A stretch of DNA of 64,000 nucleotides, taken from Holtermannia corniformis. Taxonomy: Eukaryota; Basidiomycota; Tremellomycetes; Holtermanniales. The notes beneath the pieces were generated by a model that saw only the letters and a list, made by a program, of their open reading frames with translations, searched no databases and had not been told where the DNA came from. The position numbers and the translations under genes are program-made. The stretch lies in contig BCIJ01000036.1 of assembly GCA_001599935.1 (NCBI GenBank), positions 1-64,000 of the forward strand, given 5' to 3'. Shown one piece after another: positions 6,429 to 29,031 of this stretch. Within the stretch, counting starts at the first letter, position 1; each line of letters begins with the position of its first letter.

Positions 6429-8155
6429 CCCACCCGCACATGACACATACAAGCATCCTCGAGATGCTATGTACGAAGTTTTATTGCGCTACGTGGACTA
6501 GAACACACTGCAGACATGTACGTAGTTGGCCAGAGGGCGCACCTGTACCTGGTTCCAGTCAATCTTGCTTTGTGGCTCTGTGGCCCACCCGTATAGGACG
6601 TCTGTTCACATGCTTGAGATGCTACTTACAGAGTTTCAGCGCACTGCGTGGTCACTTGCCACCTGCATAGCTGCACGAGGCTAGCAGAAGAGTACGTCTA
6701 GATCTGGCTCTGAAGAGTTACACTCCGTGGCTCACCTGCTAGGACGTTTGTGTGGAGCCGCGGGATGCTACTTACAAAGTTTCAGCTTCGAACAACGTCT
6801 CTGGAACCACGCAGACACTGACAGAGTTGGGCAAGGAGCGCATCTGGATCTGGCTCCCAGACGTTTCACTTTGTGGCCCACCCATAGAATACATCATTAT
6901 AGACACCCGAGATGCTGCCTGTAAATTTTCAGCATCCTGCGTGGTCCATGACTTGCTGCAGACGTGCAAGAAGTGGGTCTGGGTGCGCAGCCAGATCTCA
7001 CACTGACGGGTTGCACTCTGCGACCCACCCGGATAGGATGTCTGTATATATCCTCGAGATACTGTGTGCAAAGTTTCAGCACGCTGCGTGGTCTCTGACG
7101 AGCTGCAGACATGTACGAAGTTGGCCTATGAGCGCGTCTGGACCTAGCTTCGGAGAATTTCTCTATATGGCCCACCCGCACGATACGTTAGTATAGGTGC
7201 TTGAGGTGCTGTGTGCAAAGTTTCAGCACACTGCGTAGTCTCTGACGAGCTGCAGACATGTACGAAGTTGGCCTCGGAGCGCGTCTAGATCTCGCTCCAG
7301 CAAATTTCACTTTGTGGCCCACCCGCATGAGACGTCTGTATAGATGGTCGAGATGCTCTGTACAAAGTTTGAACACGCTGCGTGGTCTGTAGCACCCTGC
7401 AGACGTGCACGAAGCTAGTCTGGGTGCGCAACTAGATCTGGAGCTGACGAATTTCACTTTGTGGCCCACCCGTATAGGACGTCTCTAGACATCCTCGAGA
7501 TGCTCTGTACAAAGTTTCAGCACGCTGCGTGGTCACTGGCCACCTGCATAGCTGCACGAAGCTAGCAGAAGGGTGCGTCTAGATCTCGCTCCAGCGAATT
7601 TCACTTTACGGCCCACCCGCATGAGACGTCAGTAGACATCCTCGGCATGCTATGTGCAAGGTTTCAGACCGCTGCGTGGTCTCTGGCATGCAGCATACAT
7701 GTACGAAGTCAGCTGGAGGGCACGTCTGGATCTCGCTCTGACGGATTTCACTTTATGGCCCACCCGTCTCAGACGTCTGCAAACATCCTCGAGATGCTAT
7801 GTACAAAGTTTCAGACCGCTGCGTGGTCTGTGGCTGGCTGCACACACGCACGAAGTTGGCAAAGCTGTACGTCTGGATCTCGCTCTAACGAATTTCACTT
7901 TATGGCCCACCCGTATGAGACGTTAGCAAAGACCTCTGAGATGCTATGTGCAAAGTCTCGACGCGCTGCATGGTCTGTAGCACGCTGCAGACTTGCACGA
8001 AGCTGGTCTGGGTGCGCAGCTAGATCTGGAGCTGACGAGTTTCACTTTGTGGCCCACCCGTACAGGACGTCTCTAGACATCCTCAAGACGCTCTGTACAA
8101 AGTTTCAGCACGCTGCATGGTCTGTAGCACCCTGCAGACGTGCACCAAGTTGGCT
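6429..8155. repeat. Tandem satellite, 147-bp period, about 12 copies
   Basis: The anchor CCCACCC (or its variant) starts at 6429, 6584, 6731, 6877, 7024, 7171, 7318, 7465, 7612, 7759, 7906 and 8053. All eight intervals from 6877 to 8053 are exactly 147 bp. The earlier ones are 155 (an 8-bp duplication), 147 and 146. Each unit carries GAGATGCT-TGTACAAAGTTTCAGC, GCTGCGTGGTC, TGCAGACxTGCACGAAG, a TCTAGATCT box and TTTCACTTTGTGG. Copies are clearly diverged from one another. The last copy is cut at about 8155. Because 147 is divisible by three, open frames run through several copies on both strands; I do not regard these as genes. Confidence 0.93.
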
Positions 8156-8211
8156 GGTACACCGGTGCATCTCTAAGTGGGAACAGGTTCACCGATGCAT
8201 CTCTCTAAGTT

Positions 8212-10341: not shown

Positions 10342-13300
10342 CTACTCGTCCCACAGCACCCGCATTTCGTCGGGATCCTCCGAAAAGCCCTCAAGCACCC
10401 AGATCACCAGCCGAATCATGTGCGGCAGTCCCGTACTGTCTTGAGCTGATAGCCACTTGCACAGATCCTCGTTCGTCGCGTGCATCTCTTGTAGAACGTA
10501 GCGTCCAGCATGATCCGCATTGTTGTACGCCGTGTAGATCAGCTCGGGCAGAAAGTCCTTGAACTGTCGGCAGCTGTCCCCTGACGACCAGCTTGACCCG
10601 TGAAGAACGTGGCGGCCAGTAGGCGTGCTGAGCGGCATCCAGCAGCGAAAGCAGATTCGGTTCGTGCCCCAGTTGATCTGTTTCTTCCAGGCGCCGAGCT
10701 GACGTAGGTTGATTTCGAACAGCGGGCAGCCACCGTAGACGTGCCCTTGGCCTCGGCCGCCGTTCGCCAAGTGTAGTGGGCACCACGGAGGAACCGCACT
10801 GCACGCCTGATCAACCAGACCGTTGAATCGCGCCAGGAGTTGGTCTGCGCGCATGTGGTTGCCTCGAACTCGCGCCGAGTCCTCTTCGTTCAGCACCGGT
10901 GTTGGCCTCCAGGACGGCGGGGTACTTGAGATGACACTGGCCTCACTGGCCTTGCTCGCCGAATGAAACGACTTGATGCTAGAGACGGCTTGTCGCTTGC
11001 TGGGAGTTTCGTGGTCCTCGCTCCACTTGCGCTTTGCTGATGCCAGATGTTTGAGGACGCTCGAGCCAGACTGGATCGTGCTGGGGACGTTTGCGCCTGA
11101 CAGGGACTGTCCAGCTGCAGCGCGTTGCTGTGTTGGCCGCAGCGTGGTCTGCGGTGGTGTTGGCGGCACCAGCCACGAGCTGTGCACTTGTTTCACCAGC
11201 TGAGCGGACGGCAGTACCACTGTTGACCTGGATGATTGATGCTGCAGCGGATTCACGCAGGTCGCTTGCAGTGGCTGATCGCTGGAGGCATGCTCTGGTG
11301 GCGCGCTTGAAGCACTTTCCGGAGGAGTGATGCCACCTGTCGGAGCTGGACGAGGAGCCCATGGTTCCAGGCTCTGGCCGCGCGAGTTCTTGAGCCCTGG
11401 TACAGGAGGTGCAAACGGGAATTGCGACGGGTGCTCGTGGCAGCAGTTGTCGCACATGTAGCCTTCGGGAATAAATGTGCAGTGATCGAGCGTCCCGTTG
11501 ATCATCTTGCTGACCATCTGCCGTCGGCAGGCAACCCGCTCGGCACAGTACTCCTGCATAGCGTGCTGCCCAGTGATGTCTGGCAGCTTGATCTGGCGTG
11601 GCGCTGACGGGAATACGTGGCACATCGTCAAATGCAGTGGTCGAGAGCGTCCGCCGCGGCCAATCTCCTGCACGTAGCTGAGCATGTCGTCTGGCGCTCC
11701 GACGTGAATGATGCCGTGGACGTCTGGCAGGTTGACGCCACAGCCGAGTCCAGAGGTTGTGCATAGCACTCGGTTCGCCGTGCCAGTCCCCAGTGCTGTG
11801 TATGCTGCCAGAGCTGCTGCACGTTCGTCTGCAGACAGGGAGCTGTGGTGTGCACCGCAGCCCAGGGATTGCGCGAGCGTTGTGACTTGCAGCTTGGTGG
11901 TGCAGAAAATGAGGATACGCCCGTTCGTACCAAGGTAGGGCCCGTCCATCCAGTATTTGACCAGCTCGCGGACTGCAGCAAACAGCGGAGGACCTTGCAA
12001 GACGTCCTGGTGGACTGCGTAGCAGTGTTTCTTGTTGACGAGCGGCAGTCCGACGTGCCAGGCGCGGCCAATCTGGAGCATCTGCAGCAGCGGGGATATC
12101 ATGGACGGCGGACAGGTTGCGGTGAGGAGGACCATTGGGCACGCGAGCTGGCGGAGTGCGTGCAGCTGTGCAAATACGTCCCGGTAGGTTGCACTGATAG
12201 CGAGGTGTGCTTCTTCAATAACAATGCGCTTCTGCGTAGTGTCAGCTAGATTCAGAGACAGGGATTGAACGCACCAGCTGCGAGCGGAGCGTCTTTGCCC
12301 AATTCAGGAAACGAGGGGTGGATGCCGTCTCCACTGATACAAAGACAATCCCGCGTACGTAGGACTGGCTTGCAACCTCATCGAAATGGTGCGCCAGCTT
12401 GAAGTCGTAGTGCTGGGTTGCCTGGCGGTAGCTGTCGAGGAATTCGTTGAGAAGTGCGCGCAGCGGGACGACAACCACTGTGCAGCGGTCGTCCTCCATG
12501 AGACCAGCTAGCTTCCAGACCAAGCTCTTGCCGAAGCCTGTTGGCAGCGTGACAAGCAGGTTGTCTGCTTCCGTCTCCTGTTGCAGCGCGAGCATGCACG
12601 CCTTGGCCTGCTCTGCGGAATAGAAGCGGCTGTCTTTCGGCGCAAACTGAGGACGCTGACTGCCGCTGAGGAACAGCCGCACACACTCGATGACCTCGTC
12701 GGACGGCTCCGAGACTTCGGGGCAGGGTACAATCGAGTACAGCGGAGTTGGTGCACTTGCGGGTTTGACGCAGGGCACGTCTGCAGCCATCTTTGCAAGG
12801 TGCGGCTTGAGCTCAGCTGCGACAAGCTTTGCCAAAGCACCCATGTCGATCGCAGGCATGATTGACTCTGTCTTCACGTCGGAACCGTCCAACAGCTCGG
12901 TGACGATTGGCCCGCAGCGGAGCAGGTGATGCCATTCGCGGCTGGCACGTTGGAACCTGAGGAGCGATGCAGCGTCCAAGCCCTCCAGGTCGCTCGAGTC
13001 CAGCCCGTAGTGGGTTCGTGCGGTGTGCGAGGTGTGGCCAGCCTGGAGATCCATCGTATCGTCGCCCAGCTGAAGCGGCATGTTCTTTAGCACCTTGTGC
13101 TTTTGCTGGATGAGGACAACAGCCTGCCGCCAGTCTTGAACACCAATGCGCGATCCGCAGTGAGCCTGCAGCGCGTCCGCCATGGCAAGGCTAATGTCGT
13201 TGCCGCTCCACTGCCGTCCGTTCGAGGCAAATAGATAGGTGCGCATGACAGCCGTGTGCATGGTGGCGTCGGCTTGGACGGTGGCCATGAACGGCGCAAA

Positions 13301-15685
13301 GTACACCTCGATGGGACGAATGTAGATGATGTAGCGCAGCAACAGGTCCGAGACTGCCTGCGGTGCTTCACGCGAAACCACTTTGTCCTTGCCGGTGAGG
13401 TTGGCGCTCTTGTGATATTGCAGGACAAAGTTGATGCGGCCAGCAATCGCAAAGACGTTACGGTGCGCGTTGGGCGTGTTGATCAGCTTGGTGGTACAAA
13501 GCTCTTCGCCTCGCGCAGGAGAGCCGTAGGTGACGTGAACGAGGACAGCGAGGATCTGGAGCAGCTCCTTGCACTGCTGCAGGTAGCGAGCCACTTGAGG
13601 GCGCCGCCAGTTGACGCAGTCGTCGAGCAAGCCAGCGTGCCAAGAATACGAGTGGGTCTTGGTACACGCTTTGAGGAGAGACTCCCACGCGTCTCCCAGA
13701 CGGTTCTCCGTGATGAACGAGTAGTTGTTGAGAGGGCTGGGTAGGACATCGCGGAGTGAGTCGGGAATGGGCATGGGGACGTCCAGCCCCAGGTACTCGA
13801 GTCGCTTGTTGGCGTCATCGCAGAGCGTCTGGATCATTGCGCGAACATGATCGAGGTGGAGGGGATTGCCGTTGACAGACATGGAGAGGCCTTCGGTATC
13901 GTTCCATGCACAGCGCGGCAGAGGACGGGATGCAGCAGCGCAGGCGTTGGCGAAATGGCGCATATCAAGGATCACACTGAATGTGCTGACCCTGTCGCCG
14001 CGCACGAGAGATGTCATGTCGTTGAGATACCTGCTGGTCAGCAATGTTCGGCAGCTTGCGCCAAACTCACTGCTCCTGATCCTGCACTGCCAGGTCACCA
14101 GCATCAAGTCTCCGCATGATCGAGCTGTACAGCACCGTTCGGATCACCCACTGCAGTTGCGACAGCGTCCGCGTCACCTCGTGTGCCCCCATGAACCCGC
14201 CGTCCTCTTTCAGGTGGAAAAGACACAGGAACCGCATGATGGGGAATGCGTACGGATCCCTGTGAGCAGCGGCCGGAGTGTCGACAAGCATGATGACAAC
14301 GAATGTCTCGAGAGCGGGAAGGAATCCTGCGGGCGTATTGTGCGAGCCGAGCAGGTGGTGGAATGCGTCCTCGACCGTTTTGGAGACAGGTCCCTTGTAC
14401 GTAGCGGCACCCTCAGAGTCGTGGTTGCGCTCAATGAAGCGGAACAGCATGCTGAGGAAGCGGACGAACGTGTCCATGCACGACTTGAGATAGTCGACAG
14501 TGCCAGCTTTCAGGACGGAATCAGCGCTGAGCTTGTCAGCACAGCCAGCGCAATCCTGCGTACTCACCTGGATCCGCGTCCTTCGCCAATATACATGAGG
14601 CGCCGCCGCACTGTTGCGTTGCCACCGTTCAGCTCGCTGTGCAGCTGCGTGAGGGCAGTGCGGGTGTGTTGGATGAGTTCGGGGAGTCCCGTTTCGCCAT
14701 GCGTAGGTGTGCGGAAGGTCAGGCCCATGAGCGGCCGCGTTGGGAAGCCCTTGACATGGCTGATCCAGTCGTACTTGCGCAGAAACGGGGTGAGGTCACG
14801 CACGTTCTCCTCGATTGAACAGCGCTTTGGAATCGCAGCCAACGCTGCCTTGTAGACATCGCTGTGCAGGGACGGCGGAGCAGGGGGTGCGGTGTTGACT
14901 CGGAACGAGACTCCGCCCGACTTGAAGATGCATTGGAATGCAACATTGAGCTCGTAGTCGTTGCGGTTGCACTTCTTGTGGCAGCTGCTAATGTGCGTCT
15001 GCATGGAGCTGATCTGGCTGCAGACGTAGCTGGACGCAATTAGCCTTGTTCGCACAGCGGTTAATCAACTCACCGGCACAGCTTGCAGCCGTAGCCATGC
15101 TCGATCTTGATATTCTTCAGTGCAGGGACGTAAACTCCTGGTTCGTTCGAGACAGGGATTGCGGGATGCGATGATGTCCCATGCGCATCGGGAAAGCGCT
15201 TGATGATGCTGTTGATTTCATTGCGCTTGAGCTCGATGTGATTGTGTGTGCGGACGTGATCCTGAATGACGCGGCTTGCCGCGCGCACCCCGTATTCGCA
15301 CTCCTTGCAGATAAAGACGCAAGCGGCGGGATTATAAATGAGGTTGAGTGCGTTCAGCTCAGCGTCTGAGACGGACGGAACGTCCCATGCGTTGATATTG
15401 TCTATTGCTGTCAGCCACGCCACCGCAGATCAAGTACGCACCATAGACCACCCCCGCGTTGATCTTTCCATCCAGCAGGAACAACTCTGCGCCTTTGCCC
15501 TTGTCCTTGGTGTCGGCCTCAGCGTTGACCTCTGGCTCATTGTCCACTGCGTCCACCGCGATGCAGTCACCACCGAGATCCTCATCGTCGCCGTCTATGA
15601 CAATAGCTGTTTCCAGCGACAGCCCAAGTCCGCTCGGGATGTCCTCGAAGGTTTCGGTCTTGACAATGATCTGTTCGGCAGACAT
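10342..15685 (-). CDS. Zinc-finger / tyrosine-recombinase-like / RecQ-type helicase fusion (copy A)
   Basis: Six exons (15685-15442, 15401-15074, 15029-14568, 14526-14071, 14030-12275, 12231-10342) join in phase with introns of 40-44 nt to give 1711 residues. In order: an acidic N-terminus; two zinc-finger-like segments with CKECEYG and CKLCRYVC (about 95-210), resembling the DUF3505 region of fungal RecQ-like proteins; a recombinase-like core with Arg in SPARGEEL (about 667), Lys in QYHKSANL, Arg in QDWRQAVVLI and His plus Tyr in AGHTSHTARTHYG (about 830); a superfamily 2 helicase with TLPTGFGKS (about 992), EEAH, TATCP and QEIGRGGR (about 1271); a RecQ-type zinc site ending CDNC (about 1342); a Ser/Pro-rich linker; and a C-terminal Cys/His module. 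It probably binds, cuts and rejoins DNA, and could be the mobility protein of a fungal element. No disabling mutation was seen. Confidence 0.85.
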
Positions 15686-16145
15686 GTTTGAGATTCGGCA
15701 ATGTAGTTTGCGTAGTTTGCGTAGAGTAATTCGAGTAGCGTTAATCGAGATCAGTGACAGCTCTTTTAACCAGTCTACGTACCTCTTATACAGCTATCCA
15801 GCTGTTAAAACAACAACAGACCCCTGCAGCAGCGTCAGTGATTTTGTCGCTGCAGTGATTGCCTGTGCGCACTGATGACTCGCTGCTGTGCTTCCACGTC
15901 AAGACTTGCGGGCCTGCAGTCCTGATTCAGCATTGCCAGTGATTGCCTGTGCGCTGTCCGTGCAGGTCTGGACAGCGGGCTGGACGTGCAGAGTGGTCGT
16001 ACGAGGTGGATGGTCGTACGAGGTAGACGAGGACAGCGCAGTCTTCGGCGGGTTCAAACCTGCAGTCACGTGTCAGGNGGAGGNTTAACGTGGCACAGCT
16101 GACGTCTGTAATGATTGAGTCTATATGATTGCATGCATATTATAA
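15686..16145. other. Intergenic between copy A and its short relative
   Basis: Upstream region of copy A. It contains tandem GTTTGCGTA words (15708-15725), a duplicated CAGTGATTGCCTGTGCGC (about 15854 and 15940) and two N's near 16080. No gene is supported. Confidence 0.6.
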
Positions 16146-17258
16146 CTACAGCTCTGGAGACAGCGACTGCGGAGTGGACGGGATGATGGATGGCAGTACG
16201 GATGATTGCTGCAGTGACAGCTGAATTGACACTGGGTCAATGATCACTGGGGTGCGCGAGCGCGCTGAAAAATAGTCTCGTTCGGTGGACGAACAGACTT
16301 GCGACGGGACAACAGTGGGTGATTCGGGCGGGACGGCAGTGGGTGACGAAGGTAGGGAGGTGAGCGGCGAGGTTGGTGGCTGCGTTCCGCATTCGGCCTC
16401 TCTGGCTGCAGCTTCGGCAGCCTGCCTGGCTTCGTTCGCCTGGATGGCCAACCGCAGCTGACCAGCGGGCCTTGTTGGCCGCAGGTCTTCAACCTCAAAC
16501 GCAACCCTGCGGCCCGTCTCGAAGATGATCTGGTACGGGATGTCGTACTGGAACCCGTCCCGTGGCTGGCCAGGATGACGCTGCGTGATGTGCCAGACCA
16601 TGAGCGGTTTGTCCTCGGGTCGGCAGACAAAGCTGCGGCTGTTAGCAACGTAGCCGCAATTTCTAGTACGCACCGGCAGCAGTCACACAGTAGCCCGTAC
16701 TGGACCTTGAGCCCGTCAATTGGCTTGATCAGGTCGTTGCCCACAGGAATGGCAGGGTGGGACCGCTTGCGCGCATACAGCTTGAGGAGCGTAACAACGC
16801 GGTGGACCCTCTTGCAGTTCGGCATGTATTCGTTGCGGGGGTGGTGATCAACCAGGTGATCTTTGATCAAGCTGCGGATCGCGCGCAAGCCGATGCCACA
16901 CTCCACGCAGATGATGGTGCGGATGCCAGGGTGGTACGCGAGCCCCAGCTTGTCCAGCGCCTTGAACCGCACCAGCGGCAGCTCTGTACGCTTGGTATTG
17001 GCTGTTTGCGTCAGCTCGCACTGAGACCGCGCACTACTCACAGAATATCGCCAAGATGTTCGTCTCGGGATGGTACTGCTCTGCCAGTACGGGTTCGCGC
17101 GGCTCTGGGTCTGGCTCTGCGCGGACATAGTCTTCGCCGAAGGGGGTGTGTTCGCGCCCGAACAGACTGGACTGGTGGGTGGACGGACGGTCTGATGGAC
17201 CAGGTGACGCGAGCGTAGGCCCGTAGCCAGTAAAGTTGCTGTAGGAGTAGACAGACAT
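16146..17258 (-). CDS. Zinc-finger-only paralog of the recombinase-helicase family (copy C)
   Basis: Three exons (17258-17042, 17001-16674, 16632-16146) give 343 residues. The middle exon is exactly 328 nt, as is the second exon of copies A and B, and encodes the same zinc-finger region (CVECGIG, DHLVDHHP, CDCCR). The third exon starts with the conserved second finger (CRPEDK...HITQRH, FEVEDL) but then turns into an Ala/Glu-rich helix and a Ser/Pro-rich tail and stops; recombinase and helicase are absent. The first exon has a new N-terminus rich in Tyr, Pro and acidic residues. It may be a DNA-binding remnant, a regulator or a repressor derived from the family. An intact frame over three exons argues that it is not simply a dead fragment. 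Function unknown. Confidence 0.78.
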
Positions 17259-18668
17259 CTGCGGTGGTTGGTGAGAAGCAGTTGTGGGAAGGAACGAAAG
17301 GTGGTGGAGACAAAGGATCGCAGCGTCCAACTCCTGTTTCCACGTCAGCAACGTACGACTGTCTGTGCGTACCCATGGTTACTGCGTAGCATGTCAACAG
17401 AGTGCGTGCTGATGTTTACGCATCTGCGGGCAGGCATTCTGTGGGTCAGAGCTTGTGCACCAGCTTTTTCGTCTGGCATCTTTGTCTGCGAATGGTCTCC
17501 AGGTGCGCACCGCGCCCAGCCAGGTGCTACGTGACTGCAAGATTTATCTAAATCACGTGATCAGTCTTGGCATGACTACCGCCGCGCTGCACCGTGTATG
17601 GACAACCCGTGGTGCAGATTCCAGACTGCGTCCATTCTGGCGCCAGTCTGATGCACACTTGCCAGTGTGAGTGAGGGGTCCAAACCGTTTGAAATATGTT
17701 TGTATAGGTCACATCTAAGTTTTCCTAGGCAGATCTGATTTTTCGGCTTGCGGCATACAGCTGTATGAGCAAATATGTGCTTTTTCTTCGGAAATTTATT
17801 TCTCCGCACAGAATGCAGCTAGCGAAGAGATTGAACCAGTTTCCAGGAGCCTGAACATATATCTACACGAATATAAACAAGCGGAAGCACCACCCATTTT
17901 ACCAACGTCAACGCGCAGCATCATACCTGCACCACTGGTCCGCACACTGAACCTGACCGTCCCGTCTGCTTTTGAACACGGGACACCTAGTACATCTGTT
18001 AGTCATTGCTTGTAGCTATATTTTCCAGCATCAAACTCCTTGGTAGCTTCACTCAGTGAGGAGTGACGCGTGCTCGGCTGAACTGCACCCAGCTGCAGCT
18101 GGTGCCAGAGCTCGCACCGAACCGCAGCCTGGCCATGTGCAAACCATGTGGCTTCCACATGTGTGGCACTCCAGTGCGGCAACCACCGCAACCGCCGCAG
18201 CAGACCTGCAAGTGACAAGTCAGGCCGTAAATTCATATGGCTGGGTTCGTACAGACTGCAGCTATCCAACCAGCCAGGTTTCCGGAGCGACTTGTCCCTT
18301 GCTGAAGAAATAATTGCGACGTCACTGCGCACCTGCCACTTTCAAATTTCGGGAGCTTCATTTCCTTTCGACCGCAGAGATCTCCACAACCAGGACACTT
18401 ACAAACGAGATCTCTTNGCCAGCTTGTTCAGAATGGCTGATTTACTTAACAGGATTTCAAGCGCAGCGTACCAGATGCAGCTCCGCCGCGGCTAGTTTGT
18501 GACGGCGCGACTATGCCACCAANCGGCCAGCACATGGCATGACGCCGTGACTATTTTCCACTTCTGGCAACTTCTGCATGACCAGAATCCCGTCGCATGG
18601 CTGACGCCGCAACTATTACTACTTTTGGGTGCTAGTGACGGCGTCACTACGGACTTGAACAGGTAAGG
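17259..18668. other. Intergenic, no supported gene
   Basis: Upstream flank of copy C. It has a CACGTGATCAG motif near 17553 and an AT-richer patch at 17690-17900. Near 18500-18650 there are four variants of TGACGSCGYSACTA, including the palindrome GTGACGGCGTCAC. Open frames exist on both strands at 18000-18500, but none shows a family resemblance or splices clearly to the dioxygenase at 18669. Confidence 0.55.
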
Positions 18669-19732
18669 ATGAATGGAAGCACCGCGCTCTACACCTGATC
18701 ACAACACTCAAGAATCCCTTTCCCAAACATATCAAGGCATACTACGAAGAAACCCTACGACCCCTTGCACCCCTCCTCACCACCCTCCCTCTCACTGGTG
18801 CCATCAACATCCTCTGCAACGCCAAGCCAGGCTATCCCTGGAATCGTCAGGTTTGGAAGGGCGCACCAGTCCCCCCTCCCAAGTACTGGCTCAAACGGGT
18901 GGACAATGTCATCTGCCACGAAGAGATGGCCATCATTGAGCAACTCTACGCTGGCATGCTCGAAGCCAAGTGCCAATCCCATCTCAAAGAGGAACGGCAC
19001 GAAGGAAATGAGCACCCGTACCACCTGGGCTACTGGGCTAGATACGGCTCAGAAGCCAGAGGCCAATCATGGCTCTCAGCTGATACGGTCCAAGGTGGCG
19101 AGTTGCCCAAAGTCAAGGCAGCACTTCGAATGCTGTCCTTCTATGACAAGGTCCTGCTCAAGCGAGCTTACAGCAAGCTGGTCCAAGCGGATCCAGCCGC
19201 AGTGCTCAAAGCAAGACAAGTCATGCGAAATGCAGAGATCGATCTGTACGGTCTCCAAGACGTCATCAAGGAGATTGATAAGGAGGTGGGGGGTCAAGCA
19301 CTACGAGGTGGCAACCTGGTCACCATGCTAGCCATCAGCACGGGTTCAGCTGGCCTACCCCACATAGACATCAATGACGCCAGGGGCCTGTACACGGTCT
19401 GCACCCCAGTGTCTACGCTGGGATGGGACGAACCTGGCGAGGCTACAGGTCACATGGTCCTACCCCAGCTGGGCGTCATCGTCCCTCTACGGCCAGGACA
19501 GATGATGGCGTTCCACAGTGCACTACAAGTCCACTTCGCCACAGAGATCCCAAAGGACAAGAGGGAACGTAGGATGATGATGACGGGGTTCCAGGACCAG
19601 ATGGCCAAGCAACGGTTCATAGGGGATGGAGCACACGTCCAAGACATGGAGTTGGTGGAAGGAAAGAAAATGTGGCCCCCAGAGAGCAAGAAGAGGAAGC
19701 GTAAGGCAGATGATCAGATGGATGTAGATTAA
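18669..19732 (+). CDS. 2-oxoglutarate/Fe(II) dioxygenase-like protein, 5' end incomplete
   Basis: A single open stretch of about 354 codons ends at a TAA at 19730-19732. Upstream of 18669 the frame is closed by a TGA next to a possible acceptor (TTGAACAG), and no upstream exon could be joined, so the 5' end is missing or unrecognised; the first in-frame ATG is near 18926. The dioxygenase core shows PHIDINDARG (His-x-Asp Fe ligands), a GHMVLPQLG block, RPGQMMAFHS and the distal His in LQVHF, followed by basic KDKRERR. This order matches the TET/JBP-like fold and parallels the gene at 8212. A C-terminal KKRKRK run is a likely nuclear localisation signal. The substrate is unknown; nucleic acid is a reasonable guess. 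It could be a truncated pseudogene, although the remaining frame has no stop. Confidence 0.6.
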
Positions 19733-20010
19733 TTTTTTGGCTACTCATCTAGTTAAACCAGGCAGCCTGGAAACGACGTGATCAGGGTAAAAGTTGGACT
19801 TGGTGCAGCTGGTCATCATCAGCAGTCTGGAACACGCTCAAAGNGTACAGACGTTGGACTTGGTCAATCCTGCAGACATCAGCTTAGCACGTGATAGTTT
19901 GCCTGGGTCACGTGACCTTGGCCAGATCATGTGACTAGGCCAAAGCACATGAAGCTAACGCAGCCAAGCGTGTCATAGCCACTCACAACCAGTAGAATTA
20001 CTCTCGCCAT
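19733..20010. other. Intergenic with recurrent short motifs
   Basis: Contains a GGCAGCCTGGAAA copy at 19761, and several CACGTGA/CATGTGA words (about 19778, 19891, 19906, 19926). No gene seen. Confidence 0.5.
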
Positions 20011-20061
20011 CTTAGTCTAGTGGTTAAGGTGGTTCGATTCTTGCTGGTAACAGTTCGAATC
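20011..20061 (+). other. tRNA-like fragment with pol III A and B box sequences
   Basis: TAGTCTAGTGGTTAAGG (about 20013-20029) fits the A box of tRNA genes. GGTTCGATTC (20031-20040) and AGTTCGAATCT (20052-20062) both resemble B boxes. I could not fold a complete cloverleaf: the arms around the second B box do not pair and no matching 3' acceptor strand follows. It is best read as a tRNA-derived fragment, possibly a SINE head or pseudo-tRNA. Confidence 0.35.
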
Positions 20062-20174
20062 TAGACGTAGCATTCGCTTATCTTGCATTCTCCAGACGAT
20101 GGTAAGTCATTGGCCCTGTTAGCCGAGCTCTAACGAATACTAACTCTACGTCAGATTTGATCTAATTCCAGTGG

Positions 20175-20445
20175 TGTCGCGTGCGAGGGTGGCCTGTGAG
20201 TAGAACTTTGTGTTCGGCGCAGTGTCCTTTTTGCCTCTCTTTCACTCCTCTGCGTACACTGGGTAGTTTTTACCTCATCTGCGCCTTCTGTGTCCTCTGC
20301 GTATTTTTTATGTGTTCTGCGTCTCTGTGCTCTGCATCTCAATGCGTTGCGCCTATGTGGTCTGCGTCTCTGGTCTGCGTCTCTGTGTTCTACGTCTCTG
20401 TACAGCTGTGTCCTCTGCGTCCCTCTGTCCATTGTCCATTGTCCA
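20175..20445. repeat. CTCTGCGT-type low-complexity tract
   Basis: Irregular repetition of TCTGCGTCTCTGTG-like words on the plus strand. It is open in several frames because of its composition and is not a gene. A shorter similar tract lies at 3630-3670. Confidence 0.75.
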
Positions 20446-20700
20446 AGTTGTGCAAGTTACGTAGTCAGCATTCAAATCGCACAAGTGGCGCAGTCAACGT
20501 CTTCACGGGTTTAAATGTGACTTGCCTATCTGCGCAGTGCTGTCATTGGTCTATCTAGGCAGCCTGGAAATCGTCGAAATCATGCAAACAAGACACTTGT
20601 ACAAGACTCTGATGTCCAGAACACTCTGATACACGCCTAATTTGTCCAACTTGGTGGCGCAGCAAACTAAAGATCAGCCAACGTCCTCCTCTCTCTCATT

Positions 20701-20810
20701 CACGGCAGCCCGGAAAAGGGCAAATCAGAATAAAATGACCCTTTGCTCTCCTTGCGCTCGATCACGGCAGCCCGGAAAATAAGCAAGTTGGAATAAAATG
20801 ACCCTTTGGA
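20701..20810. repeat. Two copies of a 50-bp unit with CACGGCAGCCCGGAAAA
   Basis: Copies at 20701-20750 and 20763-20810 share CACGGCAGCCCGGAAAA and GAATAAAATGACCCTTTG. Single GGCAGCC words also occur at 19761, 20558 and 20889, the last just beside the stop of copy B (20907). Confidence 0.8.
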
Positions 20811-20906
20811 CTGGCAGCTGACCAAGTTTGCACCGTAGCTGACGTATCAGCGTCCACTGCAGACGAGACCGTCTCTCTCGCTCATCCAGGCAGCCGGTAT
20901 TATACA

Positions 20907-23900
20907 TCAAGCTAAGATACGGACATTACAATCATCAAAGCCTTCGAGAATCCATAGTGCCAGCCGTATCGCACCAGTCAAACCTCCCTCGTCCTTCGTT
21001 GGCAGCCAGTCGTGCAAGTCGTTGTCGCTTGGGAACATGTCGCGCAGGATCTGATTCCCCTCGTGGTCTGCCCGCTTGTACGCCACGTAGATGAGCTCGG
21101 GAATAAAGTCTGCGTAGACTGAGCAGTTGCGCCACTCGCGGCTGTGGAGGACGTTGACGCCCGTCGTAGACTGCAAAGGCAGCCAGCACTTGCGGCACTC
21201 GCCATAAGGCCACTTGATTTGGCGCTTCCATTCGGCGAGGTCGAGGATGCTGTCTTGCCAGTAAGGACAGTCGCGTACGCAGTGACGCTCAGTCATCCCG
21301 TTCGCCGCGCAGATGGGACAAGACCGGTCCTCGGGATTAGGATAGTCGCAGTGGTGCCGCATCAAGCCGTTGAGACGNAGCAGCAGCGAGCTCGAGTGAA
21401 GGCGCTCGTGCTGGACGGCTGTCGAGTCGGACAGAGTCGAGGACGAAGACTTCGGCCGGCTTGCTTGACTTGATTGACGTACGGCTTGACGGTCGAGCGC
21501 AGCTGCCGAAGACGTCACACGTTTGCTCGGACCGCCTTGGTTGTCCTCAGCCTTGCGCTTCAGAGGCTGCGACAGCGTCCACATTGGTGATTGAACAGAC
21601 TCTGCAAGTGACGAGTCGCTGATCGTGATGACACTCGGCAGCTGAGAAAGTGGCCAAAGTGGGCGCGAAGGCAACGCAGGAGGCGTCGGTGGCTGGATTG
21701 GCCTTGCAAGAGGTGATGTCGTGAGGGGCGGAGTCACTGGTGCAAGTACCGGAGCTGGCGGAGTGATGGGGAACGCTTGCGACACCGCGTCCCTGAGCTG
21801 CACGCCGTCGCCATTGGTCTTGACGCTGCCAGCAACGCGGAACGGGTTTTGAAGTCCTCGACGATCACCGCAGTTGTCGCAGAGTAGCGGCTTCGAGGTG
21901 AAAAAGCAGTTGTCTGCACGATCATTCAGCAGCGAGCTGATTTGATGACGACGACAAGTCTGACGGTTGTCGCAGTAGTCAATCATCGCTTGCTGACCCG
22001 TGACGTCTGGCAGCACCGGGGTTCGACGATGTGCCGAGGGAAAGACGTACGACAGCGCCTGCTTGCCTGTGCGTCCGCTACGGCCGACCTCTTGTGCAAA
22101 GCTCAGCAAGTCGTCAGGCTCGCCAACGTGGATCACGGCGTCAACGTTTGGCAGGTTGACGCCGCAGCCAAGTCCCGCCGTAGTGCAGAGGACGCGGTCT
22201 GTCTTGTTGTTTGACCCATTGGTGAACGCCCACAGCATCGCTGTGCGCATATTCTCGGTCATCCCGCTGTGGTGGAACCCGCAGCCGAGCTTGGCTGCCA
22301 ACGCCTCGACTTGCTTCTTGGCACCGCTGCAGAAGACGAGCACGCGTGACGTAGGCGTGAGGGTGCCGCGGTCAAACCAGTGCGTGATCAAAGCCTTGAC
22401 ACTGTTGAACAGGAGCGTGCCAGACAGTCGCTGAGGGTGGACGAGGTACGAGTGGTGCTGGTTGACGATAGGTAGGCCAACGTGGGCAGCGCGGCTGATT
22501 TGCAGAGAGTCGAGCAGCGGAGTGATCATTGGCTGCGGACATGTTGCCGTGACGAGGATCATAGGTCGAGCCAGCTTGCGCAGCGCCTTGAGCTTCGTCA
22601 TGTGCTCACGGTATCTCGCCGAGCAGACGACGAGGTGTGCCTCTTCAATGACAATACGCTTGAGAGGCGTCTCGAGTTGCGCCGCCCAGTCGAGGAAATG
22701 CTTGGTGACTGCCTGTTCAACNGAGACGAAGACAACNCCGCTGACNTGNCGNTGGTANCCGACCTTTTCAAACGGGTGCGCAATTTTGGCGTGGACGTCT
22801 CGATGGTTGCCAAGTTGCTCGAGCTCGGCCAAGAACTCGTTGAGCAGCGCGCGCAGTGGTACGACGACAATGGTACACTCGTTTCTCTCGCAGAGTGCAG
22901 CCAGTTTCCACACGTAGCTCTTGCCAGCACCAGTTGGGAGCGTCACGAGCAGGTTGTCGTCCTCCGTCTTGGCCTCGAGAGTGAGCATGCACGCGTACGC
23001 TTGCTCTGCAGACCGAAAGGCGCCGCTCTTGTGGAGGATAGACAGAGCCTTGAACACGCTGGTTGTGAGAGGCGGCAGAGGCGGGAGCGGGACGATGCGA
23101 GATGACGACGGCAAGGAAGGGACAGGCGCGGTGGGTGGTGGAGTGAGCTGCGGCTTGAGACGGGCAGCGACGAGGCTCGCAATCAGGTCGTAGTCTACGC
23201 CAGACTCGGACTTGACTGGCTCGTTCTTGATTTTATACGAGTCATCTACTCGAGGACCGCACTTGAGCAGGTGGTGCCATTCGCGGCTCGCAAGCTGGAA
23301 GCACTGGAGCGAGTTGCCATGTAGACCCGCGAGGTCTGCCGAGTTCAGACCATAGTACGCCCTTGCAGTAGACGATGTGTGGCCAGCCTGGAGGTCCTCG
23401 ATGTCGTCCTCGATCTCAATGGGTTGATTCGGCAACACCTTGTGCTTCTGCTGGATGAGCACGACGGCTTGACGCCAGTCTTGCAAGCCAATCTCCGCCT
23501 CGCAGTGCTCCATCAACGCAAGCTTGAGAGCCTCGCTGAGATTGACGCCGCTCCACTGGACGCCGTGCGAGGCCAAGAGGTAGCTCCGCGTGATGGCCAC
23601 CTTTTCCTCGGCGTCCGCAGCGTCCTTGGCAATGTTCCCGACCAAGTACGCCTCGACAGGTCTGATGAAGACGAGGTACTTGAGCAGCAGCTCAGAGACG
23701 CACAGCGGCAGCTCGCGAGGGATAGGCTTGTCCTTGCCAATGAGGTTCGCGCTCTTGTGGTACTGGAGGATGACGGTGAGACGCCCCGAGATGGCAAAGA
23801 CGTTGCGGAGGGTGGACCCGATGTTGACGAGCTTGGTCGAGCAGAGCTCCGAGCCTCGAGACGGAGAGCCGCAGGTGACGTGGATGAGCGGAGCCAGGAT

Positions 23901-25842
23901 GCCGAGTAATGCACGGCAGTCGTTGAGGTAGCGTACCACACGTGTGCGCTGCCAGACGATCTCGCCATTGTCGAGGCCGCGGTGGAACCCGTCCGAGTCC
24001 ATGATACGCTGCAGGACGGCTCGCCAATGATCTTGCAAGCCGTTCTGCGTCACGAAGCTGTAGCCAGCCTCCTCGTTTGGCACCTGGTCCTTGAGCTCGA
24101 GGGACACGTTGAGGTCCTCGCCAAGTGCCAGAGACGCCAGCATCTCGCCAGCCTTGGTGCACAGCGTCGGGATCATCGTGCGTACACGGTCGAGGTCGAG
24201 AGTAGTGCCGTTGACTGCGAGGATGACGCCAGCCGTGTCTTTCCAGCTGCAGCGAGGGAGGAGGGGAGTGGCCATGGCGCAGGCGTTGGCAAGCCGTTTC
24301 ATGTCGAGCAGGGCAGAAAAGCAGTTGAGACGGGATGGACTGATGAGCGCGATCGTGTCCGCAACGCTGAGACATCAGCTACGCTCGCGAGCTGAAGTCC
24401 AGACTCACGCAGTCTGCTCTGGCATCCCCGAGTCGAGGTCCGCCATGATCTTGCTATAGAGAACGGCACGAATGATCCATTGCAGCTGAGCGAGGGTGCG
24501 GGTGATGTCGTGCGGGCCATCAAAGCCACCCTTCTCCTTGAGATGACGCAAGCAGATGAAGCGGATGAGAGGGAACTCGTAGACGCTGCGGTGCGAGGAG
24601 GATGGGACGTCCTCGAGGAGGGCAACGACGAACTCTTGCAAGTTGGTGATGATCGTGTCGGGCTCCGACGCCATCTCGACCAAGTCCTCGAGGGCAGACG
24701 CGAGCTGCAGAGAGATAGACGCGGTGTACGAGGAGTCCATAGGGAGTTTGACAAGACGCGCGAGCATGTTGATGAAGCGTAGGAAGGTCCGCGTNCACTC
24801 CATGATGTACTTGTTGCTGTTGGCTCGCAGCATCCCCGTTGCCCTGCGTTGTCAGCCTCGCACCAGCCGCACCAAGCCGTACTCACTCTTCAGCATCACT
24901 GTTGACCAGCAGCGTGCGTACACGCGGGTTCCCACTGATCAACATGGCGTGCACCTTGGTGATGGCCGTCCTGACGCCCTTGGATAGCTCGCCCAGCTGA
25001 ACCTCGTGCTCTCTGACCGTTGCGAACGTCAGGGCCTGCAGCGGGCGCAGCTCGTGTCCCTTGACGTGGTCCACCCAGTTGTAGACACGGAGGAACGGCG
25101 TCAAGTCCCGCTCATTCTCCACGACTGTCGTGTACGCAGGGATGGCGTTGAGCGCGGCTTCCCAGATCGCAGCTTTCGGGTCCACAGGGAGGTCGGGGAT
25201 GCGGTAGTCATCCACCTCGAAGGCGACGGTCGTGCCGCGGCTGAAAATTTGCTGGTAGACAGCGTTGTAGCGGAAGGACGTGGACGGCGCCCAGGGATGG
25301 TGGTCGCGGAGGTGGTTGGACATCGTCTTCTCCGTAGGGCAGATGTACCTGTCTTGTCAGTCATGCCTCGCAATCAGACAACTCACCTGCAGAGACGACA
25401 CGCCAGCCCGCAGTTGACTTTGAGGCCATCAATACGCTGGATGAGCTTGCCCGCGACCATGGGCAGGACGGGATGACCATTCTTGAAGGCTTGCGGGACC
25501 TCCTCGAGTGCCGCGTTGACTGCCGCGGCCGTTGCGTCCTTGGCCCGGGCGTCGTGCACCTTGGAAACGTGCTCCTTGATGCTACGAGGGATGGCTCGCA
25601 CGCCTTCCTTGCACTCGACGCAGACGAGGAAGTGTAGACCAGGTTGGTAGACGAGGCCGAGGGTTGCCAAGGCAGGCAAGTGCTCGAGAGGTGCCGTGTA
25701 GACGTCGAGGGAACCTGCGAGGTCAGCAACGTCACGTCAGGTCGCCGTACGTACCAATCTCCATGTAAACTTTGGAGCCCGCGCAGTAGAATTCATCCTC
25801 GTCAATGACAATAGCAGTAGCTTGCGTGTTGCTGACGGACAT
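20907..25842 (-). CDS. Zinc-finger / tyrosine-recombinase-like / RecQ-type helicase fusion (copy B)
   Basis: Five exons (25842-25755, 25714-25387, 25348-24887, 24843-24409, 24366-20907) give about 1590 residues. Exons two and three have the same lengths (328 and 462 nt) as in copy A. Order: zinc-finger segments (CVECKEG, CRLCRYIC, HLRDHH; about 60-160); recombinase-like core with Arg in SPSRGSEL (about 602), Lys in QYHKSANL, Arg in QDWRQAVVLI, His and Tyr in AGHTSSTARAYYG (about 767); helicase with TLPTGAGKS (about 915), EEAH, TATCP, AGLGCGVNLP and QEVGRSGR (about 1197); RecQ-type zinc site CRRHQI...CDNC (about 1270); and a Cys/His C-terminal module. A few N's near 22722-22758, 21378 and 24796 leave some residues undefined but break no frame. 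Copies A and B are clearly diverged, so this is an old duplication and both frames have been kept open. Confidence 0.85.
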
Positions 25843-26489
25843 AATGATCAGTTACAAGTTGGTGGGCAAGCCGTACGTACCGTAGCTATACATACTGACA
25901 CGCTCGCGACCCGAGCGTAACAACACCCCTCAGAGATCAGAGCCGTGATTGCCCGTGCTTGCGTCTGCATCACCGCCGCGGTTGGCCGTGCTGAGCGGGT
26001 CCTGGCTGGTCCTGGCGGGCGTCCTGGATGAGCTCGACCCGCGCAGTCTGAGGTCGCGTCGCTGACTGCGGGATCAAATTCTTGCACATGAAACCCACCG
26101 TGCACTTTCCGAGGTGAATGACGGACCAACCAAGCGTCCCCCCGCTCGGAGACCAGTACCGTTGTGCTCAGAATAATCAGGGGAACACGCTCGTCTTAAT
26201 CTCCGAGGGGCGGACGAGTCGTAGCCAGAGACGCCAACTCACGGTCAGAGACGACCTGCTGAGATCATGTGACTCAAGCCTGGATTCAGCGCGTATCCGC
26301 TCTGCAGCCCGTAAAATGCAACTTTAGACAGAACTCTGATAGCATAGATTGTAGAGCTAAGTCGTAGCTTTCCGTGAATATAACCTAGAGCTCTGTACGT
26401 GTCTTAGTTGTTGAGTTCCGAGGGCCGGGGAGTGCTACGAGGGGAATGGAATCTGCGACGCGCCCACGTGGCCGTGAATTACTCAACTA

Positions 26490-26671
26490 GGCAAGTTACG
26501 AGGGTCGGGGACAGCACCACGTGTTTTCACCTGCCCGATTGGGGTGCTTTTACGACGTGAATGAGAATCCACAATGGTTAGGCAGGTTACGAGGGTCGGG
26601 GACGCGGCCACGTGTTTTCACCTTCCCAATCGGGGTGCTTTTACGACGTGAATGAGAATCCACAATGGTTA
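26490..26671. repeat. 91-bp tandem duplication containing CACGTG
   Basis: Two copies (26490-26580, 26581-26671) start GGCARGTTACGAGGGTCGGG and end GAATCCACAATGGTTA; each holds CCACGTGTTTTCACC. A partial, diverged third copy precedes them at about 26415-26489. Confidence 0.9.
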
Positions 26672-26999
26672 GGTAGCCTATGGAAAGCCTGCCTCTCTGC
26701 TATCGTTCACGGCCGCCATGTAATCCACGATTTCGAAGGGGTATGGTTGATTTGTAGGCAGGTGAATGGCTGACGTCAGACGGGCGATGAGGGTGTAAGA
26801 TGAACAGGATAGGCGACGGGTGGTTGTCAGCTGCAGTGAGAACTAGTGCCGCTATGGTACGACCGTCCAGGTTCATACGACTGACCGTGCATTCAAGACG
26901 TGGATCTAGACGGTGAAGTTCCTAGACACTCTCGAGGTAGATTTGCTGGACAGGGCGGAGTCGACGTCTGGAATGCTGCCGTGGTTGGATTCGAGCCAA

Positions 27000-27460
27000 T
27001 GACGGCGTCCGTGATGGAGAGAGAAGAGTGACTGTGCGTGGACCGTCTGTGCTGTTTCTAGACTTTGATCGGTCGTGTTGGGGCAGAATGACGGCGTCCG
27101 TGGTCGAGAGAAAGAGACTGATCGAGTGTGGACTGCTGTTCGCAATTCCCGTCCGGCTGCTGATCCTGACTGGCTATTGGCCGTGGCGGGTGGCCTGTGA
27201 TGATGGCTCATCGTCATGGCTGTGGCTGTCGTCGTCGTCGTCCTAGTTGAGGTCCTAATTGAGGTCGTAGTTGAGATCGAGGTTGGGATCGAGGTGGACG
27301 TCGTGGCTGGCCGTCCGTCGCCGATCTGAGCCAATTCCCAGGGTCCGTGATAGGGAGCGAGACGCCATATGACTGGCGAAAGGTGGACATTCCAGTCTAA
27401 TGACTGCTTTATCCATTGTGCTGATTTCCCAGCGTCCGTGATGGAGAGCGAGACGGGTTG
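27000..27460. repeat. Eroded dispersed repeat built on GCGTCCGTGATGGAGAG
   Basis: Four variants of this word occur at about 27004, 27092, 27343 and 27434, the first two followed by a similar 60-bp context. A minus-strand open frame of 187 codons over this stretch is a by-product of the repeat. Confidence 0.6.
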
Positions 27461-29031
27461 GTCAGTCACAACTTGTCCAAATCAACGCCGCGTGTGGTTT
27501 CCCCACGTGAAATCGTATTTTGAAACTATCATATGATTTTTCATTTTTCGCGAAAAAACGACTAAGTCCCTTATTTTGGTCAAAACCCGGCGCCCGGTTT
27601 TGGATGGCGAGAGAGCTCGGGTCAGCTCAAACTCGACTAATCCTAGACTATTATATACCGTTTGAAAGCTACGCTTGAGGAGATTACGATTCTAATGTCT
27701 GTTAGGTCGCTGCTTCGAATCCAAGTCTTGTAATTCGATATGCAAGCCTGGAAAACAGCCTTTTCGCCCGAATGCTGACTTAGTCCCCACTGCACACCGG
27801 CGATTTTTTGCGGCTTTTTTGCGGTGTTTTCTGGCTCAGCTGAGTTGATTACAACAAGTTATCCTAATGAGCGATTGATCTGGCTAATGGTTGAGTGATC
27901 CAATCCTAATGAGTGATTGATCCAGTACTGATGGCTGATTGATACGAGTGGTGCTGCTGGTGTACGGTGTTGTGCAGTGCTAGCACTGTGTTAGAGTGGT
28001 GCTAGCTGGTTGCATTGATACGGTGCAGTGGATTGATCCCAGTGTACTATGGCTGGATCAATGCATTGATCCCGCGTCGATAGTTATTAGAGCAATGGCA
28101 GGTGAGGAGAGAGTCGACGCGTGGCGCGAGAACTGGGTGAACCAGGTGGTCGACGTCGGGCGTTCCGCGAGGGACAAGGGCAAAGCTACAGTGTCGTTAG
28201 TATGCAATTCATGGCTCACTTGCGCAATAGACCATGGCGCTATAGGGACAGAGAAAAGAAACCGAGTCCGCGTCAAAGTGCGAGAAAAGGGAAGGGAAGA
28301 GACGTGGGGTGTTCCGGGCGTCCATGTCCAGACAGAGCCAAACCGGTCGATGAGGGCTCGAGCTGTTACTCACTGCTTGCTCCCAATTTAAATTTGACAT
28401 GCCAGGTGCTGTGGAACGGGCGCTACGACGCGACGCGAGAGACCGGTACCGGAGAAGAGCCAGGCGATGTGAGGGCGGTCGAGTGCGTCTCCTGCGGTTT
28501 CATCAGCATGGGATGATAGTGGAGATACCGTAGAGAGCTCACAGTGCAAGTTCATGATGCGAGACGCAGCGCCCAGCTGGTGGGAGACGGCGAGGTTCGG
28601 TGATGGCGGGGTGCGGTGCCTGCGATGCATCAGCCTATACACGGGCATCCGCTGCGTTCTCGCACCTCAGATCGATAGTGCAGTGCGTACCAAGGTCTCT
28701 CGAGCAACTGGAGTCCTCAGGAGGATCTCGAGAAGATCACCCCAGCCAAACGCCATGAGCACTGACAGTTGATCAGCTCGCGAAGAGGCATGAAAATACC
28801 GTAGGACTCACTCTACTGCAATTTGGTCGAAGGCAAGCAGGCGAGAGCACCGTCGGATCTGGCTAGGCAACAAAGTAGCATTGTCGCACAGAAAAGGGCA
28901 GGACGTGTGGTCGAAAAGATGTCGACGTCGAGCGGCGCCCGGATCGCAAGTGGCTGTCTACGCAATCACATCACTCAGACGAGCATCCCAACTTCGCTTA
29001 CAACTAAACACACGCCGCGATCGGATAGCGG

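Follow-up and report, generated by a model that had tools for sequence, protein, structure and literature searches.

CCT-joined elements with predicted tyrosine recombinase-RecQ helicase genes at chromosome ends of Holtermannia corniformis

Whether RecQ helicase genes near fungal chromosome ends serve the host or are the mobility genes of elements that live there is the question raised by the left 64 kb (hereafter the window) of contig BCIJ01000036.1 (C36, 160.7 kb) in the 20.2 Mb, 55-contig assembly of Holtermannia corniformis. The window holds two large genes on the minus strand, A (about 15429-10342) and B (about 25736-20907), with one domain order: zinc fingers of the OrsD type, then a middle domain with the motifs R-K-R-H-Y, then a RecQ helicase. 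A preliminary description of the locus had listed these parts correctly, as the motifs that it quoted are all present and in frame in both copies, and had read them as the complete mobility protein of a new type of element. We favour, with a probability of about 60%, the reading that these are telomere-terminal mobile elements in which a tyrosine recombinase (YR) joins a fixed 5' terminus to the trinucleotide CCT one-endedly, replacing the distal end of the chromosome.

The upstream ends of the elements were defined by comparing copies, as the points where differing DNA meets a constant sequence. Element A (10342..18668, minus strand) has an exact 5' end at 18668 (CCTTACCTGTTC) and a 3' end at or beyond 10342, and element B (18669..26582, minus strand) has an exact 5' end at 26582 (CCTAACCATTGTGG) and lost its 3' part at 18668 to element A. 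Position 18668 was also considered as the 3' end of B; this was ruled out, 18668 being the 5' end of A that cuts B. The window further contains a 91-base stub of a B-type 5' end (26583..26673, minus strand), interrupted by element B, and a fragment of an element C (26674..28091, minus strand), with its 3' part removed and a 5' end at 28091 that reads TCTAATAAC here and CCTAATAAC on C10 and C45. The four are nested head to tail, C (28091) being cut by the B stub (26673), the stub by B (26582) and B by A (18668). Genome-wide, five types of exact 5'-end sequence were found (A, B, C, D and E), with type C reading CCTAATAACTATCG (variants C' and C''), type D CCTAACCATTGTATTC (or CCTAACTATTGTATG at the gene copy on C4) and type E CCTAGTAGGGG; from their first base on, the two D bodies are 75-76% alike, and a recount confirmed type D.

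A motif listing gave 37 distinct junctions, 36 with CCT (the C end in the window has TCT), a count that is partly circular because the patterns contain CCT or CT with up to three mismatches; the list includes a doubtful C-like end on C21, whose agreement with C is limited to 13 bases and may be due to chance. Independently of these patterns, uninterrupted versions of each target were looked for elsewhere with the 22 bases that precede CCT. Of 42 junctions, 21 have such copies (17 of 37 when C53 is left out), and 116 of the 117 copies read CCT, the sole deviating one (TTA) being a window copy, one of three copies of one site. The 21 junctions group into 11 different target sites, which lie in bodies of all five types, and no target bases were lost or added before CCT.

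Several of the termini are also followed by a palindrome at a fixed distance. A perfect stem of 8-9 bp is located at bases 20-36 or 20-37 in A (8-bp stem, 18633..18649, minus strand, bases 20-36 from the end), in C (9-bp stem, 28055..28072, minus strand, bases 20-37 from the end) and in both D ends, where the two versions differ inside the stem by two paired changes. The chance of an 8-9 bp stem is 0.004 to 0.001 per 50-base stretch, and among the 1898 CCTs of the window (both strands) an 8-bp stem in this position is found solely at the A terminus. Other results are less favourable to a general role: type B has no palindrome, the stem has 7 bp in C' and 6 bp in C'', type E has one of 6 bp that is closer to the terminus, and the A, C and D ends fold with energies that are not unusual; in view of these exceptions and energies the palindrome is as likely to be a duplex binding site as a hairpin.

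A search for further copies had been proposed in the preliminary description. Within this genome there are eight strongly matching gene copies, some truncated, on seven contigs (two copies in the window), the remaining matches, apart from a decayed fragment on C5, being weak helicase matches. All eight are no more than about 25 kb from a contig end, toward which they are transcribed, so that they are subtelomeric multicopy RecQ genes of the kind called telomere-linked helicases (TLHs). The 12-mer terminus CCTAACCATTGT occurs 23 times in the 20.2 Mb, on 14 contigs (three places each on C48 and C53, which are near-identical and redundant, are included); all 23 occurrences point to the nearest contig end, at a median distance of 2.7 kb and a maximum of 26.7 kb, and the reversed control of this 12-mer does not occur in the genome. 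Junctions of any type were found near 15 contig ends, pointing outward, and 7 of these 15 end in telomere repeats. The repeat at several contig ends is TTAGGGGG, which served as a telomere seed in Cryptococcus (PMC3990503; this and the other papers below are cited from excerpts) and fits a tremellomycete-like basidiomycete; (TTAGGG)n was ruled out as the telomere repeat, none being found. Telomere repeats cap truncated elements on C3 (A, bases 1-180), C13 (B, 1-94, then A, 1-547) and C18 (B143, B143, A204), and also a B2909 followed by C on C10 and a D element on C32. Two observations weigh against the favoured reading, namely a decayed RecQ relative far inside contig C5 (411973-412335; 42%, two stop codons) and the telomere-bearing ends of C15 and C23, in which no element was recognised in 1.5 kb. 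The C5 relative may be an old interstitial copy or mark a former chromosome end. It was also observed that C3L and C13L have a common 33-base stretch just inside the first junction, preceding D in the one and B in the other, while the DNA further in differs.

In the favoured reading, a full copy would have one large gene, the product of which combines a tyrosine recombinase with OrsD zinc fingers and a RecQ helicase. The fixed 5' terminus reads CCT and in several types has a palindrome some 28 bases further in; the YR would join this terminus to a CCT close to the end of a chromosome, the helicase would supply or unwind the incoming strand, and the incoming element, with everything up to its own telomere, would be substituted for the distal DNA of the target. 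Copies would then stack head to tail and outward, keeping their 5' ends and losing their 3' parts, because each newcomer replaces distal DNA, and the YR rather than a host process would be the joiner because both the trinucleotide and the terminus are fixed.

The main rival is a conventional YR element, of which a circle integrates at CCT by both ends; the elements then nest, and erosion of the chromosome end removes the distal half together with the 3' junction. Circles with short direct repeats have been proposed as the form in which Cryptons move (PMC3212892), the telomere-capped truncated elements on several contigs fit erosion, and most junctions are so near a contig end that a 3' half may have been lost, so that the mostly short distal stretches are compatible with a two-ended insertion that lost its outer part. 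The informative case for one-endedness is C2, where inner DNA is followed by A (1-393), B (1-382) and then a B that matches the window B over the whole 7.9 kb and extends 2.8 kb beyond that match to the telomere, 10.8 kb in all. These 10.8 kb past the last 5' junction contain no recognisable 3' junction and no displaced remainder of A or B. The displaced half of the target was also sought distally in 17 cases (C53 excluded as a duplicate; up to 300 bases of expected remainder) and was found in none, the two matches obtained being the interrupting B's own body. Nor was a 3' terminus or downstream junction recognised at any of the 15 ends with junctions, where the pieces are often short and the true element length is unestablished. 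We consider the circle with erosion possible but improbable. As no 3' junction was found, the elements do not look like ordinary two-ended Crypton- or Starship-like insertions. The new element type guessed in the preliminary description is strengthened by the exact 5' ends, the CCT target, the palindromes and the confinement to chromosome ends, but in a form other than an insertion with two ends.

A second explanation, which we regard as quite unlikely, is that nothing here is mobile and that subtelomeric TLH blocks spread by break-induced replication or end-to-end exchange, with the CCT breakpoints made by microhomology. Subtelomeric RecQ families have been recorded in several fungi. Furthermore, the last 1.14 kb before the telomere is 96% identical between C2 (30-1142) and C4 (1026048-1027160), which exceeds the likeness of the B and C4 proteins (about 61%), so that exchange between ends seems to occur. 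Microhomology, however, would not pick the same CCT and the same element base in five types of 5' end and at 11 target sites, and it leaves the palindromes at a fixed distance unexplained. Reciprocal end exchange was considered as well, and not rejected.

The favoured reading needs a tyrosine recombinase, and this is very probably what the middle domain is, as predicted from residue conservation, spacing, profile register and fold comparison, each of them weak singly. In the catalytic region of copy B (23250..23957, minus strand) the motifs are in frame: R173 (GSPSRGSEL, 23858-23856), K207 (QYHKSANL), R301 (QDWRQAVVLI), and H332 and Y341 (AGHTSSTARAYYG, Y at 23354-23352). Copy A repeats the order within the open reading frame (ORF) 14143-12242 (K 13411-13409, R 13129-13127, H 13036-13034, Y 13009-13007). 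This is the order of the catalytic residues in the YR superfamily, R-K-R-(H/W)-Y, and the spacing from H to Y in copy B is nine residues, as in XerD. Two alignment searches listed 22 and 38 proteins, of which P0004 and P0005 were inspected and both contain the YR part, the others being classed as helicases because of their domain content and low coverage. In the alignment, which reaches down to 22-25% identity, all five sequences have R, K, R and Y and four of the five have H, and the ratio of nonsynonymous to synonymous change (dN/dS) of the YR region among B copies is 0.017-0.032 (four pairs); because of this conservation and these low ratios the motifs are more than chance. The preliminary description would have taken loss of the residues in other family members as speaking against a recombinase; of the five residues, only H was seen to be lost, in one of the five sequences. 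In a greedy profile alignment with bacterial YRs the R, R, H and Y columns are in register (E 0.016, probability 2.9%, 2 of 200 shuffles equally high). The fold argument leans, cautiously, on the second of two AlphaFold models, for which 19 of the 20 best matches in a structure comparison are YRs or type IB topoisomerases.

Several results weigh against this assignment. P0005 carries R in place of H332, the hhalign probability is 1-3%, the default alignment extends over 22-23 columns about the first R, the long one required the greedy setting, and single sequences do not reach full register. No Pfam YR family matches the region at E up to 10, and a PDB profile search with the YR alignment gave no YR and one unrelated match (E 0.25). 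Both models are of low confidence (pLDDT 46 and 43), and model 1 (three sequences) is poor, matching bestrophins and others, with no YR among the 50 matches shown. A protein search with region 60-385 of copy B gave no match, and in viral contigs 22 and 2 pattern matches were obtained, none of which was confirmed.

We infer that the domain is catalytic and the elements mobile. It is very unlikely, in our judgement, that the middle domain has kept the YR fold and lost catalysis, as in DUF3504 genes, and now serves a host maintenance helicase as the part that binds telomeres or DNA: YR-derived host proteins do exist (PMC3212892), the usual His of the HxxR box is replaced by Asp (QDWR) and P0005 lacks the second H, but DUF3504 proteins lost the tyrosine and the second arginine (PMC3212892), whereas here R, K, R and Y are all kept and the region is under strong purifying selection.

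A more detailed version of one-ended joining is rather doubtful as a whole. RecQ might load on the 3' G-tail of the donor telomere and peel off the outward strand; the palindrome near the exposed 5' terminus might fold or be bound by the zinc-finger/recombinase part; and the recombinase might join the freed end to a CCT at an eroded chromosome end, delivering a telomere. Transposition would then at the same time repair telomeres, and the RecQ genes long known from fungal subtelomeres would be transposases of such elements.

Subtelomeric RecQ genes as such are not new. They have been recorded in fungi since 1998 and are mostly read as telomere-maintenance helicases, with a role that is not yet settled (PMC7473861). 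Examples are those of Ustilago maydis (UTASa/UTASb, the partner repeat UTASb having an OrsD domain; PMC10532341, PMC7593156), Mycosphaerella graminicola (PMC4522978) and Agaricus bisporus, where the helicase core was the sole domain reported and a role other than telomere maintenance was considered (PMC7473861). The elements described here resemble TLHs in the RecQ core, in being multicopy and subtelomeric and, for UTASb, in the OrsD domain (PMC10532341); unlike here, the TLH descriptions, as excerpted, do not mention a YR domain, a fixed 5' end or a rule of joining at CCT (PMC7473861, PMC10532341). In the open-access literature, judged mainly from titles and the beginnings of abstracts, we found no description of a YR-RecQ fusion or of a CCT-directed telomeric element. 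The gene family is known, and its YR part, the precise ends, the use of CCT as a rule and the terminal layout with one joined end are apparently new. If true, recombinase-helicase fusions with exact ends and CCT would make the question of their role directly testable with one protein, one end sequence and one trinucleotide, would give selfish elements a DNA-based way, beside that of the telomere retrotransposons, to lengthen or restore chromosome ends, and would be a type of YR element that joins by a single end.

The elements share features with several other systems. Cryptons (CryptonF/S) are likewise fungal DNA elements with a YR and a short sequence common to element and target; fungal Cryptons have direct repeats of 4 or 6 bp at both termini (PMC3212892), whereas here 3 bp are found, with one end seen, and the position is chromosome-terminal and the YR fused to RecQ. 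GCR1_C, typical of CryptonF, had no Pfam match in P0001 and P0003 at E up to 1, and no captain family matched the YR region at E up to 10; both negatives are insensitive because Pfam also misses the YR region itself. TATE is a YR element with tandem clusters at telomeres, like those described here, but is a retrotransposon with reverse transcriptase and RNase H inside telomeric hexamer repeats (PMC6681497), whereas CCT is used here in non-telomeric DNA. Neither of these enzymes, which also mark DIRS elements, was found in Pfam scans of the submitted ORFs. HeT-A and TART of Drosophila are retrotransposons attached by their 3' end that form head-to-tail terminal arrays with one intact end and distal truncation. 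The arrays and truncation are alike, while here it is the 5' end of the gene that lies proximal on the chromosome, and the machinery resembles a recombinase combined with a helicase. Starship captains are fungal YRs (DUF3435) located at the 5' end of the element, Helitrons have one fixed end, an HUH Rep domain and a Pif1-type helicase, and the integron integrase IntI acts on attC at a trinucleotide beside a hairpin. Each resembles the present elements in one respect: the fungal YR, the one fixed end with a helicase, and a YR acting at a trinucleotide beside a hairpin, respectively. No Rep/HUH domain was found among the Pfam-scanned ORFs and the helicase matches RecQ, which separates these elements from Helitrons.

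The genes A and B probably consist of several exons each. The main exon of B (20907..24374, minus strand, 1155 amino acids) includes the YR core (about residues 140-375), RecQ (about 450-850) and a Cys-rich C-terminus, as judged from the ORF, Pfam and PDB matches and alignment. It is preceded on the same strand by three likely exons: 24408..24851, which resembles the N-terminal part of P0004 by eye (sole Pfam match PF22292, E 0.16, below cut-off), 24886..25356, downstream of the OrsD exon and without Pfam match, and 25386..25736, with OrsD-like zinc fingers (PF12013, E 2.8e-4, below the curated cut-off). In A, also on the minus strand, the YR core and the start of the helicase are in 12242..14143 and the C-terminal half of the helicase and the C-terminus in 10342..12303 (ORF and Pfam), with a likely short intron near 12255-12297 predicted from sequence context. 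Upstream are likely exons in 14070..15064 (14567-15064 and 14070-14795, no Pfam match) and 15073..15429, with OrsD zinc fingers (PF12013, E 5.4e-8, above the curated cut-off). No single ORF carries all domains because each gene appears to be multi-exon. Both copies belong to the RecQ helicases by a DEAD/Helicase_C core and the RecQ zinc-binding domain: in B all three Pfam matches are above cut-off (Helicase_C 3.7e-14, DEAD 1.1e-13, RecQ_Zn_bind 2.6e-5) and the best PDB sequence relatives are BLM and RECQ1, and in A the parts are spread over two ORFs, with RecQ_Zn_bind below its cut-off. Upstream of copy A's own OrsD exon, element A has a second OrsD-like ORF (16244..17344, minus strand; PF12013, E 3.4e-5, just under cut-off), perhaps the remains of another element or a duplication.

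Element B has a second ORF on the opposite strand (18659..19732, plus strand), the 5' end of which was removed by element A and which has no Pfam match. In the C2 copy it is open for 388 amino acids (C2:2663-3826), and relatives were found in the C4 element (C4:1021562-1022698, 45%) and inside C18 (C18:105068-106090, internal, 39%). It faces the recombinase gene in B and has the same direction in C4. The sole Pfam match of the C2 copy is Tet_JBP (E 0.23, below cut-off), and an HxD...H...R motif can be recognised by eye (HID, AFHSALQVHF, ERR), which makes the gene, as a lead only, a candidate TET/JBP-type dioxygenase. Between gene B and the telomere of C2 (the first 5.1 kb) the ORFs of at least 150 amino acids are this dioxygenase-like one and an overlapping frame of 152 amino acids.

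Distal to copy A the window contains nine to ten tandem units of 147 bp (6576-8208), about 60-82% identical to reference copies, and tandem repeats of 20 bp and 64 bp are located at the outer end of the contig (924-1270).

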